33,885 bases of DNA from the NCBI GenBank assembly GCA_017632035.1, contig JAGBSG010000064.1, forward strand, positions 1-33,885, read 5' to 3'. The DNA is from Oscillospiraceae bacterium (GTDB taxonomy: Bacteria > Bacillota > Clostridia > Oscillospirales > Oscillospiraceae). Below are positions 13,870-29,974 of this stretch, piece by piece. The notes under the pieces were generated by a model, which made no database searches, was not told the origin of the DNA, and worked only from the letters and a program-made list of their open reading frames with translations. The translations under genes were made by a program, and so were the position numbers. Within the stretch, counting starts at the first letter, position 1, and every line of letters begins with the position of its first letter.

Positions 13870-13942
13870 GGCAGAGGATGAGGGATTCGAACCCCCGCAA
13901 ACGGAGTCAGAGTCCGGTGTGCTACCGTTACACTAATCCTCT
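13869..13942 (-). tRNA. tRNA-Gln (anticodon CUG) with encoded CCA
   Basis: A full cloverleaf can be drawn on the minus strand. The acceptor is AGAGGAT/ATCCTCT and the D stem GTGT/GCAC. The anticodon arm CCGGA-CTCTGAC-TCCGT has anticodon CTG and a mismatch at the outermost pair. The T arm is GGGGG-TTCGAAT-CCCTC. The discriminator base is G, and CCA is encoded. It is 71 nt plus CCA. It reads CAG codons. The 3' end faces the decayed mobile-element fragment, as expected if it once served as an attachment site. Confidence 0.95.
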
Positions 13943-25587: not shown

Positions 25588-26349
25588 TTATGCTGGAAGC
25601 TTTTTGCCTGCCGTGATCCGGGAAACAAGCCGGACGAACCAGAAAGAGAGGAAGACAAAAAGTACATTTAAGGATGCGTTGATAAGAACGTAGAGGATCT
25701 GGGTTACGGTGTAGCCAAGAACCGGCTGCAGACTCAGGCGGACAGCTTCAAGGGGGGCAATATTGCATCTATAGAAGTTGGCAAAATTGGTTTGGAGCAG
25801 CTGTGCCATTGTGGCAGAAATAGCGCAGAAGCCGCAGGTGAAGAGCAGGGGTGCTTTTACTTCTTTGACATCACCGGGATCGTAGAGCCGAAGAGCCAGG
25901 ATCAGGATAAATTCCAGAACCACTATGTTATGGAAGGCAACGGCGTGGAAGCTAAGATAGTTGGTGAAAAATTCTTTGATGTTGCCGTCGCTGTAGATAA
26001 GTGCGGGGTAGATGAGCAGCAGCAGCGTCATAGCAGCGCAAATGCTGGTGGCAATGGTGAAAACGGTTTGTTGATATTTTCCCCTGTAGAAAGCCATTAT
26101 AGGCAGCATGAAAATGAACAGGGAGCAAAAATGAAAAGGCAGATGATATAGATCATACCCGTGGGTCAGAGAATAAGTTTGTTTGCCGATTTCAATGAGG
26201 ACCAGCAGACAAGCCAGAATCTGAAACGGTATCATGCGGATAGCAAAGCGTTGCTTGCCGATGGTCAGCTTGAGAATAACACCGAGGATCAGAAAAACAA
26301 TGACCGCGGGAAGGAGCGTTTGGGTATGTTCCGAAGTCCAGAGTACCAT
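25588..26349 (-). CDS. YwaF/TMEM164-type integral membrane protein
   Basis: The 253-residue protein has about seven hydrophobic helices. It carries the LPFHFCSLFIFMLP motif characteristic of the YwaF (TIGR02206) group, with a further His-rich stretch NYLSFHAVAFHNIVVLEF. The family is distantly related to the eukaryotic TMEM164 lipid acyltransferase, and the bacterial role is unknown. AAAGGGGG precedes the ATG at 26349. It is the last clear core gene before the AT-rich accessory region. Confidence 0.8.
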   Translation of the reverse strand: MVLWTSEHTQTLLPAVIVFLILGVILKLTIGKQRFAIRMIPFQILACLLVLIEIGKQTYSLTHGYDLYHLPFHFCSLFIFMLPIMAFYRGKYQQTVFTIATSICAAMTLLLLIYPALIYSDGNIKEFFTNYLSFHAVAFHNIVVLEFILILALRLYDPGDVKEVKAPLLFTCGFCAISATMAQLLQTNFANFYRCNIAPLEAVRLSLQPVLGYTVTQILYVLINASLNVLFVFLSFWFVRLVSRITAGKKLPA

Positions 26350-26365
26350 AGTATCCCCCTTTATG

Positions 26366-26394
26366 TTAATATTTTCTTTACAATTTTATCACAA
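26366..26394 (-). promoter_or_regulatory. Promoter of the YwaF-like gene
   Basis: On the minus strand TTGTGA (26389-26394), 17 bases, TATTAA (26366-26371). Confidence 0.6.
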
Positions 26395-26439
26395 TTTGAC
26401 GATGATCTCAACTGATCAAATCCTAAGACTTTTTTAAGA

Positions 26440-26680
26440 TTGAAGATGGTTTGCCGTTCTTTCAAGCCCTTGCAGGCGTTGTAAAAAATGGCTGACAAAA
26501 ACGGATTTATGCCAACAGCCGTAAAGGCTGCCGTCATAAATCCATGGACTTTCCCACGGCCTAAAAACATGCTCTGCCCAGCATGTTTTACCCCAGTGTG
26601 CGCACTGGTGCCGGCCGTTCAAGTCCTTGAGCATGCAGAAAACTCCGACACCAAAAAGGTGTCGGAGTTTTCTGTCTATG
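26440..26680 (+). ncRNA. Probable structured noncoding RNA with terminal terminator hairpin
   Basis: This intergenic stretch holds nested, perfectly complementary helices and no believable protein frame. Helix A is GGATTTATG (26503-26511) with CATAAATCC (26535-26543), enclosing CAGCC/GGCTG (26516-26520 with 26526-26530) across a 4x4 internal loop. A multibranch domain follows. GGACTT (26546-26551) pairs with AAGTCC (26621-26626), and inside it ACGGCC (26556-26561) pairs with GGCCGT (26613-26618). These enclose two hairpins, a 10-bp one (26564-26573 with 26580-26589) and CCAGTG-TGCG-CACTGG (26593-26608). A 17-bp terminator-like stem (26636-26652 with 26658-26674) ends the unit. The + strand is assumed; the minus strand is not excluded. 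No identity is assigned; raiA RNA is one known Clostridia class to test. Confidence 0.6.
26636..26680 (+). terminator. Strong hairpin closing the structured RNA
   Basis: A perfect 17-bp stem with an AAAAA loop. The descending arm includes GTTTTCTG, so the T-tract is partly inside the stem. It is nearly symmetric and could act on either strand. Confidence 0.75.
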
Positions 26681-26753
26681 GGCTACAAAAAAGATGTTTT
26701 GCCGTTTTTGTGTATGAATTTGAACTCGCGCATATATCACATGTATACTAAAA

Positions 26754-26768
26754 TCATCCGCGAAGCGG
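26754..26768. repeat. Small perfect palindrome before the large repeat
   Basis: ATCCGC and GCGGAT flank GAA, giving a 6-bp stem. It marks the left edge of the repetitive block. Confidence 0.45.
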
Positions 26769-26771
26769 ATC

Positions 26772-26906
26772 CCTTTACTTCTTCACTATTCACTATTACT
26801 TATTGCCTAATCGACAAGTTTCGAGAAAAAAGAGTGAAAAGTGAAGTGTGAATAGTGAAGAGTGAAAAAGTAAAATCGACAAGCTTCTTTCGAAACTTGT
26901 CGATTT
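26772..26906. repeat. Large imperfect palindrome (MITE/REP-like) with internal hairpin
   Basis: The left arm, rich in TTCACTATTCACT units (26772-26800), is matched on the opposite strand by the right arm with GTGAATAGTGAAGAGTGAAA (from 26849). AATCGACAAG occurs twice (26809 and 26874). The second copy forms a 10-bp stem with CTTGTCGATT (26896-26905). No coding capacity. I associate repeats of this style with intergenic mobile palindromes in gut Clostridia; this needs a copy-number check. Confidence 0.6.
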
Positions 26907-27030
26907 TGGCAGGGGCACAAGGACTTGAATTGCCATAGATTTTGCATTTGATTAACTTTTGTTAACCATTTAGTACCATTTCTGCGGGTTTTCCGAACAT
27001 TTAACCCCCACTAAACACAATGGTTAACCA
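26907..27030. other. tRNA-tail-like and attachment-like debris
   Basis: On the minus strand TTCAAGTCC followed by TTGTGCCCCTGCCA resembles a tRNA T-loop and 3' end, but neither the T stem nor the acceptor can be paired, so it is not a functional tRNA. Next to it GTTAACCATT (26961-26970) and AATGGTTAAC (27019-27028) form a perfect 10-bp inverted pair, and TTAACTTTTGTTAA is a further small palindrome. Together they resemble an integration-site remnant. No gene is seen in 26907-27136. Confidence 0.35.
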
Positions 27031-28576: not shown

Positions 28577-29062
28577 ATGGATATGGCACAGAGAAAACAA
28601 ATTGAAGAGCTGTATATGGAGATGTACGATAAGCTGATGGCTTATGCCTGTAGTTGCTTGGCCAGTGAAGCCTTGGCGGAAGAAGCGGTGCAGGAGACCT
28701 TCCATATTGCTTGCAAGAAATCGATGCAGTTATGCTGCAGCTCCAACCCTCAGGGTTGGCTTGTTCTGACACTGAAGAATACCATTCGGAATATGCAGAG
28801 CCACCGGGCAGCTATGAAGAAGCTGGTCGAGAGGTATATGCTGACGCGGATCTCGGAGTGTTCTTATACGGAAGACAAGATCCAGTTTAACATTCTCTAT
28901 GAGGATGTGACAGAGATGGACGAGTTCAAACTCCTGTCAGAAATGGTGATAGAGGGAAAATCTCATCAGGAAATGGCGGAGGCCCGGGGTATTACGGTCA
29001 GTGCATGCAAGAAGCGCGTGCAGCGCGCAAAGGAAGCTTTGCAGAAGAAAATTAACGATTGA
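28577..29062 (+). CDS. ECF-type RNA polymerase sigma factor
   Basis: The 161-residue protein has a sigma region 2 (YMEMYDKLMAYACSCL through AEEAVQETFHIAC, residues about 12-48) and a region 4 helix-turn-helix (EMVIEGKSHQEMAEARGI through KKRVQRAKEALQ, about residues 120-158). This is the two-domain architecture of ECF sigma factors. It would direct RNA polymerase to a small regulon. An AGGTG-type ribosome site precedes 28577, and a second ATG at 28583 is possible. It is followed by a DUF4367 membrane protein, the usual partner position for an anti-sigma. No copy of the TGTCAC motif precedes this gene on its own strand. Confidence 0.9.
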   Translation: MDMAQRKQIEELYMEMYDKLMAYACSCLASEALAEEAVQETFHIACKKSMQLCCSSNPQGWLVLTLKNTIRNMQSHRAAMKKLVERYMLTRISECSYTEDKIQFNILYEDVTEMDEFKLLSEMVIEGKSHQEMAEARGITVSACKKRVQRAKEALQKKIND

Positions 29063-29090
29063 TGTCACCATGTGACGGTTTTGCTACATA
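29063..29090 (+). promoter_or_regulatory. Candidate ECF sigma promoter, copy 2 (DUF4367 gene)
   Basis: TGTCAC (29063-29068), 15 bases, CTACATA (29084-29090), starting at the base after the sigma-factor stop. Predicted transcription starts about 15 bases before the start codon. It would let the sigma factor drive its own partner gene separately from itself. Confidence 0.6.
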
Positions 29091-29113
29091 TATAGATGAA
29101 GGGAGGAAACAGA

Positions 29114-29974
29114 ATGTCCGAGAATCAGGACTGTGGAATTCGGAATCACTCGAAATATGATACCATGGACACAGAAACACTTGAGGAAATTCTGCGGTTG
29201 GATTCTGAAGCCCCAGAGGGGCAGGAATCGGATACAGAGTTGATTCTGTACATAATGGAGGTGTTGGCGAAGAGAAAAAAACTAAGCAGCACCGGAAAGA
29301 CAGCACAGCAAGCATGGGAATCCTTTCAGCAGCACTATCTTCCCCAGGAGGAAGAGATTGCTGAAAAGCCTTTGAAATCCAAGAAGATCAATAAGTCATT
29401 CAGTTCCGGGCTGCGCCGGCTGATTGCGGCAGCGGCAGTGGTGGCACTGTTGGTTGGCCTCTCTGTGGCGGCTGGGGCGTTGCGTTGGGAAGAGATTTGG
29501 AACACCGTTGCCAAATGGGCAAAGGAGACCTTCTCCTTCGTGAGCCCGGACCAGACGGAGCAGACTGGGCCGAGTCCTGACAATATCAATTGCTACACAG
29601 CTTTGCAGGAGGCGTTGGCTGCAGAAAAGAGAGAAACAGATATTGTGCCCACATGGATCCCGGAAGGATATATATTCAATGAGATTATTATTGAAGAAAA
29701 TCCAATGCAAAAAGTATATGTTGCCTTGTATAGTCATGGAGAAACAATTTTAAAAATCCATGTACAGGCGCATTTGATGGCTGATCCTGAGAGAGTGGAG
29801 GCCAATGAGGATCTGCTTGAAGTTTACCAATCGTCCGGTGTGGATTATTATATTCTCGCCAACCATCAGCAGCTGCGGGCTGTTTGGATCAAGGGTTCCT
29901 ATGAGTGCTATATTTCCGGTGAATTGACTGTCGAAGAAATAAAATTGATGATCGATTCTATCGGGAAAGGATAA
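29114..29974 (+). CDS. DUF4367 membrane protein, probable anti-sigma factor
   Basis: The 286-residue protein has an acidic cytosolic N-terminal part (about 100 residues) and one membrane helix (LIAAAAVVALLVGLSVAAGA, about residues 105-125). An extracellular C-terminal DUF4367-type domain follows, with PTWIPEGYIFNEIII and a closing LTVEEIKLMIDSIG. This topology is typical of proteins encoded just after ECF sigma factors and thought to hold them at the membrane. No zinc-binding HxxxCxxC motif is present. The start at 29114 has GGGAGG 7 bases upstream; the ATG at 29096 has none. Confidence 0.85.
   Translation: MSENQDCGIRNHSKYDTMDTETLEEILRLDSEAPEGQESDTELILYIMEVLAKRKKLSSTGKTAQQAWESFQQHYLPQEEEIAEKPLKSKKINKSFSSGLRRLIAAAAVVALLVGLSVAAGALRWEEIWNTVAKWAKETFSFVSPDQTEQTGPSPDNINCYTALQEALAAEKRETDIVPTWIPEGYIFNEIIIEENPMQKVYVALYSHGETILKIHVQAHLMADPERVEANEDLLEVYQSSGVDYYILANHQQLRAVWIKGSYECYISGELTVEEIKLMIDSIGKG

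Follow-up and report, generated by a model that had tools for sequence, protein, structure and literature searches.

Among structured bacterial RNAs, raiA RNA is a compact RNA of Clostridia, and the tRNA-linked repeat (TLR) copies at the tyrT/tyrV genes of Escherichia coli are the sequences covered by Rfam family RF00391 (RtT). The Oscillospirales elements described here resemble the E. coli TLRs, which PMC8144298 counts as 22 copies at ten loci (one to five per locus) that lie downstream of tRNA or rRNA genes and finish with 18-19 bp repeating the 3' end of the RNA before them. TLRs were first described in 1978, and that paper (2021) gives their function as not known; three TLR small RNAs (rrA, rrB and rrF) are reported there to arise by terminator read-through and to interact with Hfq and CsrA (PMC8144298).

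The element that led us to this family lies in a contig of an Oscillospiraceae bacterium (GenBank assembly GCA_017632035.1, contig JAGBSG010000064.1), the whole 33,885-nucleotide stretch of which is referred to as the window. We consider it probable, though well short of certain, that the element is a TLR-like noncoding RNA of the minus strand, that it belongs to a tRNA-Trp locus, and that its family is made by read-through from tRNA genes.

A structured element on the minus strand of the window

Folding of positions 26400-26690 yielded energies of -124.9 kcal/mol on the minus strand (z -9.6) and -118.3 kcal/mol on the plus strand (z -9.0), and on either strand none of 200 dinucleotide shuffles was as good. 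The original prediction, made from the letters alone, described five nested perfect helices without naming a strand; all five are present in the sequence and nest without conflict, and the evidence assigns them to the minus strand. Its 9-bp helix with an inner stem is H1 (26501-26545), its two-layer closing helix consists of 26626-26621 paired with 26551-26546 and 26618-26613 paired with 26561-26556, its hairpins of 10 and 6 bp correspond to hp1 and hp2, and its 17-bp stem is a terminator-like hairpin at 26636-26674. The parts of the element and of its surroundings, in the order of the minus strand, are as follows.

26907-26929, minus strand: 3' fragment of tRNA-Trp, TTCAAGTCCTTGTGCCCCTGCCA, identical to the intact gene at 22 of 23 bases
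26872-26907, minus strand: terminator-like hairpin after the tRNA-Trp fragment (sequence)
26636-26674, no strand assigned: 17-bp hairpin resembling an intrinsic terminator, upstream of the element in the minus-strand sense (sequence, fold)
26501-26626, minus strand: the TLR-like structured element, covering the whole of covariance model R1 (1-122) at 94.7 bits and E 4.3e-20, the window copy being one of the 65 training rows of this model
26621-26626, minus strand: 5' strand of P2, GGACTT (sequence)
26613-26618, minus strand: 5' strand of P3, ACGGCC (fold, sequence)
26590-26612, minus strand: hairpin hp2, CCAGTG-CGCA-CACTGG (fold, sequence)
26564-26589, minus strand: hairpin hp1, AAAACATGCT/AGCATGTTTT (fold, sequence; the stem covaries in relatives)
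26556-26561, minus strand: 3' strand of P3, GGCCGT (fold, sequence)
26546-26551, minus strand: 3' strand of P2, AAGTCC, the sole remnant of the tRNA 3'-end copy in the window copy
26501-26545, minus strand: H1, with a variable 11-bp outer stem, a conserved inner internal loop and a small hairpin (fold, alignment)

In the relatives examined, a hairpin of the terminator kind stands at the place equivalent to window positions 26636-26674. A mechanically called frame of 87 amino acids (26488-26751, plus strand) overlaps the element.

The element was compared with known RNA classes by scanning the window with Rfam models. At gathering score, the sole match in the whole window was one tRNA (13872-13942), with none at the element, and a permissive scan of 26340-26760 (E up to 10) returned eight matches to microRNAs, a snoRNA, U6 and a viral pseudoknot, every one of them below gathering score. 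The element shares with raiA RNA and other clostridial Rfam RNAs the character of a compact structured clostridial RNA, but it differs from them in matching no Rfam family; it is therefore not raiA, which the original prediction had offered as an example of the known Clostridia class to which it might belong, and the scans rule out the other known Rfam classes as well. Among the literature matches listed for Clostridia and Faecalibacterium, we recognised no description of such an element, which may be present as an unnamed motif in a supplementary list.

The element family is multi-copy in a group of gut bacteria

Copies of the element were collected by sequence and covariance searches. A 321-base query matched six other sites of the window's own genome (E up to 1e-3), one of which is the terminator's own inverted match, and it matched many genomes of the same genus, where some matches cover just the 28-33-nt flank at 26668-26700, a different motif. 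One exact pattern occurred in 112 stretches of the GTDB collection, titled Oscillospiraceae or, more broadly, Clostridia, Clostridiales, Eubacteriales, Bacillota or 'uncultured bacterium' MAGs; among them are one Candidatus Faecousia and a single isolate, Pseudoflavonifractor sp. MSJ-30, whose copy adjoins tRNA-His (L085). A relaxed core search over these stretches produced 137 rows, and removal of four non-element rows left 133 copies. The element family is multi-copy and occurs in a group of gut bacteria. Two or more copies stand in arrays on 19 of 113 locus-strands, with periods of 108-240 bp and one of 299 across an N gap, and the window holds one copy. One exact element pattern had no match in a viral contig collection.

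Covariance model R1, which was built from 65 copies, matches 38 of 60 other genomes in a genus sample, 17 of 294 others in an order sample (weakly, with a best E of 3.5e-9) and 1 of 290 others in a class sample. For a second model, R2, 12 distant copies alone were used, and an alignment of near and far copies (A2), in which P3 was misplaced by one column, was set aside. R2 matches 13 of the 294 others in the order sample and, in a phylum sample, none of 397 genomes besides the window's own; the genus, order, class and phylum samples partly overlap, and stricter filters applied in the large searches. The window copy itself is absent from the R2 matches at E up to 0.001, and R2 finds five other places in the window's own genome, matches that tie the near and far copies together.

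Several neighbouring arrangements were observed along the way. A separate conserved motif lies just past the terminator in the window (26679-26733, reading ...GTTCRAATTCATACGCAAAAAC-GCAAAAATATCTTTTTTGTAGCCCATAGACA on the reverse strand); it adjoins a terminator-like hairpin in seven copies examined and is present in several genera of the order, and since its length varies among copies, a coding frame for it is disfavoured. At locus L082 (G004:C114, 5496-5806), two elements face each other across one terminator with no tRNA between them, so that an element itself occupies the place expected of the tRNA. A second family of structured repeats, bounded by T-loop sequence, stands beside tRNAs at L070, L092, L143, L155 and L160 in the form GGACTCG/TTTGCAT ... 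GCATTTGA../TTCGAGTCC, or as its end, ATGCAAA/CGAGTCCC; at L143 and L155, it is fused into a TLR-like element. Arrays of short hairpins spaced by TGAAAT or ATATAAC-like direct repeats are present at L021, L160 and L211, and the one at L160 is close to a tRNA gene.

The stems of the element are kept by compensatory change

Sixty-four non-redundant copies (of 86 complete ones) and the window copy were aligned on the tRNA strand. Aligned copies were required to have a recognisable H1 stem (101 of the 137 rows passed the H1 score) and T-arm; P3, hp1 and the variable position of P2 were unselected for pairing. RNAalifold returned 38 pairs, 27 of them with double changes. With one conserved G-U pair added, 94.7% of the cells of 39 pairs are paired versus 72.9% after shuffling, the percentage for H1 being inflated because its stem served as a selection criterion, and 27 pairs are again double-changed. 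Double-changed cells number 539, as compared to 165.5 in shuffled alignments and at most 142 in slid controls, and the covariation score is 0.544, as compared to 0.150 and at most 0.099, respectively. Further pair types total 82 versus 75.3 in shuffled alignments, a count that 8 of 500 shuffles reach. The P2 variable pair (n = 65) is C-G in 37 copies, U-A in 19, A-U in seven and G-C in two, the P3 variable pair is C-G in 36, G-C in 28 and of another kind in one, and all four Watson-Crick types occur at many pairs of H1. These computations show that the stems are kept by compensatory change. Covariation among homologues was the test that the original prediction had itself proposed, and it supports the structured noncoding RNA; the suggested membership of a known Clostridia class is unsupported.

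The G-U and A-C cells carry a strand signal. When the alignment is read on the tRNA strand, G-U cells outnumber A-C cells by 81 to 37, by 79 to 21 with four doubtful-register columns excluded, and by 56 to 20 when a single column contributing 23 G-U is removed as well; binomial p-values for this comparison are too small, as the related sequences are not independent. On the same strand, G-U pairs occupy 27 of 1083 H1 cells, which is rare for an RNA. By inspection, the internal loops there take the form of tandem G-A pairs, and several hairpin loops have the pattern GNA; one internal loop, CGAAAGGSC / GSCCGUGGGAGA, is near-invariant.

Most elements follow tRNA or tmRNA genes, and distant relatives often copy their 3' ends

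An RNA gene lies within 1.5 kb on the terminator side of 98 of the 133 copies (95 tRNA and 3 tmRNA genes), and all of these linked genes are on the strand of the element and upstream of it, in one orientation only. For the other 35 copies, neither kind of gene is within reach: 14 of these copies stand where the contig ends, and the remaining 21 have none. Counted by locus, a tRNA is on the terminator side in 78 of 112, and a far-side tRNA, in either orientation, accompanies five copies at four loci. Core and tRNA are no more than 135 nt apart in 65 of the 95 tRNA-linked copies; the distance is 136-450 nt in another 29, most of which belong to arrays, and 1099 nt in the last. The most frequent neighbours are Leu(gag) (23 copies), His (14), Pro(cgg) (12), Glu (9) and Arg(ccg) (9), followed by Gln(ctg) (9), Arg(acg) (7) and Ser(tga) (6); the first copies examined adjoin tRNA-Ser (L037), tRNA-Leu (L039 and L041) and tRNA-Trp (L043). 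The original prediction missed that the element is tRNA-linked, multi-copy, sometimes tandem and on the other strand.

Comparison with the neighbouring genes shows how the fold incorporates the tRNA. P2 closes the body formed by P3, hp1 and hp2, and its 3' strand copies the T-arm of the tRNA, while its 5' strand is the complement. By script, the variable base of P2 equals the T-loop base of the neighbouring tRNA in 83 of 95 copies; ten of the 12 flagged mismatches are regex artefacts (nine Glu and one Ala) that match on inspection, and the remaining two are degenerate copies. In the window's genus, the tail copy is usually shortened to GANUCC, which is followed by H1, and a longer tail copy is kept within this genus at a few loci (L135, L106).

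Longer copies are found among distant relatives. Nineteen remote loci, taken from R1 matches in the order and class samples (L199 and L216 form one array), were scored: 14 have a tRNA or tmRNA upstream on the same strand, and in the remaining five no tRNA lies upstream within the stretch examined. At nine loci, the 3' end of the upstream gene is repeated directly and exactly over 16-21 nt, the threshold being 16 nt. Tail copies of 20 nt repeat tRNA-Ser (L205), tmRNA (L206) and tRNA-Leu (L200), and one of 21 nt repeats tRNA-Tyr (L217). Fourteen further loci were R2 matches outside training, with training loci, tandem neighbours and the window's own genome left out (four are also R1 matches, and L254 is the same element as L198); nine of them have a same-strand upstream tRNA or tmRNA, and eight have a tail copy of 11-21 nt, which in six is at least 16 nt long. 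The copies linked to tmRNA are L138, L146, L206, L214 and L243, the last three with a tmRNA tail copy. The element is flanked by tRNA-Asp and tRNA-Phe at L213 and L252 and by tRNA-Phe and tRNA-Gly at L212, with everything on one strand. Computation thus places the family downstream of tRNA and tmRNA genes on their strand, with a tail copy that in distant relatives often reaches the tRNA 3' end.

Copies are mostly inherited in place

Core identity was compared among 69 copies whose tRNA is known, a single copy being taken for each locus and tRNA. It is 0.76 where copies from different genomes adjoin the same tRNA, 0.68 where copies from one genome adjoin different tRNAs and 0.63 where neither is shared; none of 1000 permutations reached the tRNA effect, and 48 of 1000 reached the genome effect, a weak within-genome similarity. 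In a comparison of flanks that covered element-bearing loci only, the flanking DNA of many locus pairs aligns on the tRNA side and the alignment ends at the far edge of the element, and in some close locus pairs the flanks align on both sides. From the identities and flank patterns together, we conclude that inheritance in place predominates among the copies and that a degree of homogenisation or movement accompanies it. Free spread within genomes as the main mode is unsupported by the identity permutations.

The window copy and tRNA-Trp

The intact tRNA-Trp gene of the window's genome is located on contig C2 (3859-3932); its T-arm is TTCAAGTCC, and a terminator-like hairpin stands behind the gene, with other DNA beyond. 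The complement of this T-arm, GGACTTGAA, is formed in the window by the 5' strand of P2 and the next bases, and a TTTTCCCCTTATTGGG stretch is present near both the intact gene and the tRNA-Trp tail in the window. In a relative (G034, locus L043), tRNA-Met, tRNA-Trp, a terminator and the element follow one another consecutively. Through the tail fragment and this relative, the window copy indirectly fits a tRNA-Trp locus. The simplest reading, pieced together from the separate contigs C2 and C67, is that an island integrated in tRNA-Trp and that its far end lies in the window; no integrase was found among the window proteins scanned. The island would apparently have separated the window element from the tRNA-Trp promoter, so that the window copy, cut off in this way, may be silent. 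An ECF-type sigma factor followed by a DUF4367 protein is encoded on the island side of the tRNA-Trp fragment (28577-29974, plus strand).

A proposed read-through RNA and its alternatives

In the TLR-like noncoding RNA that we favour, RNA polymerase would pass the terminator behind the tRNA, the body of the element would fold as a domain of its own, and the full tail copy, where it is kept, would be trimmed by tRNA 3'-end processing enzymes. The released small RNA could then bind a putative protein via its near-invariant internal loop, and this binding might report or tune the output of the tRNA operon. In the window's genus, where H1 mostly replaces the acceptor part of the copy, H1 may act as the 3' end of the RNA; the sequence after H1 is weakly T-rich (0.37 over the first 9 nucleotides of 95 distinct tails), so that H1 is a tentative candidate for a plain terminator. 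Several points weigh against the read-through RNA: the terminator before the element would limit read-through, the rarity of G-U pairs is also compatible with palindromic DNA that is selected or homogenised, 35 of the 133 copies lack a neighbouring tRNA or tmRNA, the number of further pair types is matched by 8 of 500 shuffles, pairing in H1 is inflated by selection, and a weak within-genome similarity is present.

The main rival, which we regard as unlikely but worth serious attention, is a gene-less mobile or selfish DNA element that inserts itself site-specifically at the T-loop of tRNA genes. The tail copy would then be an attachment-site duplication, the fold a single-strand DNA recombination substrate or a replication hairpin, and any RNA incidental. 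In part of the loci, the body is bracketed by direct repeats of the tRNA 3' end, as after integration into a tRNA; an origin by tandem duplication or copying would leave the same repeats. The arrays, the many tRNA types used with a T-arm copy matching each, the very few G-U pairs and the island that apparently uses tRNA-Trp in the window's own genome would all suit mobile DNA, whereas inheritance mainly by tRNA locus and not by spread within the genome, a G-U/A-C asymmetry that indicates one strand, and the viral contig collection, in which one exact pattern had no match, argue against it.

It is considerably less probable that a small RNA is made from the plus strand, convergent with the tRNA, the two sharing a bidirectional terminator. 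In the examined loci, the shared hairpin is indeed bordered on either side by an A-tract and a T-tract, as bidirectional terminators are, but the excess of G-U over A-C cells on the tRNA strand (81 to 37), the internal loops that by inspection form tandem G-A pairs on that strand, and the embedding of three remote copies (L212, L213 and L252) between same-strand tRNA genes disfavour this orientation. A cis-regulatory, riboswitch-like leader of the gene beyond deserves very little credence: a TMEM164-family gene (25588-26349, minus strand) does begin ~150 nt downstream of the window element on the same strand, but the longest far-side ORF is on the opposite strand in 71 of 102 scorable loci and on the same strand in 31 (ORFs of at least 90 aa within 1.5 kb, called mechanically and not as genes; 11 more loci were unscorable).

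Comparison with the TLRs of E. coli

At the K-12 tyrT locus, the copied tail pairs with a complementary start of the body, forming a 10-bp helix in all four folded TLR copies (5' strand GGGGAAGGAU in three copies and GGGGAAGGGU in one), and this closing helix is common to the K-12 tyrT copies and the Oscillospirales elements. However, R1 has no match at the K-12 tyrT locus, and RF00391, which gives four matches at the E. coli control locus, has none in the window or in the nine loci of relatives scanned. The two groups are therefore alike in layout and at most putatively homologous. The Oscillospirales elements differ from the TLRs in their conserved GAAA/GUGGGA loops and in the terminator that usually stands in front of them, and those of the window's genus differ further in that H1 replaces the acceptor part of the tail copy. 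Like TLRs, the family can have a single copy or several in tandem at a locus. We describe the window copy as TLR-like, and not as a TLR, because its tail is 6 nt long (AAGTCC, before H1), short of the 18-19 bp identity that characterises TLRs. Another RNA of E. coli, 3'ETS-leuZ, resembles the proposed RNA in being a tRNA-transcript trailer that acts as a small RNA, but in the passages of PMC8144298 that concern it, no repeat with a copied tRNA tail is described.

The elements constitute a second family with the TLR layout, from another phylum, and their many diverged copies provide strong covariation, which reveals the helices and loops that are kept, the strand on which they are kept, and the copied tRNA tail as part of the fold. 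It is possible, if doubtful, that a single class, much wider than thought, has the TLRs of E. coli and the Oscillospirales elements as two branches. In such a class, an RNA body would acquire the 3' end of whichever tRNA or tmRNA precedes it and pair this end with a built-in complement, thereby gaining a tRNA-processed tail and a closing helix; it could settle behind many tRNAs and then be kept vertically as a functional RNA. The choice between RNA and mobile DNA for such repeats is now directly testable, for example in the isolate Pseudoflavonifractor sp. MSJ-30.

The TLR bodies of K-12 tyrT (L224) contain C(GAA)G hairpins that are like the loops of the Oscillospirales elements, and a potential C(GCA)G hairpin, absent from the minimum-energy fold, likewise resembles these loops in three of the K-12 tyrT copies.
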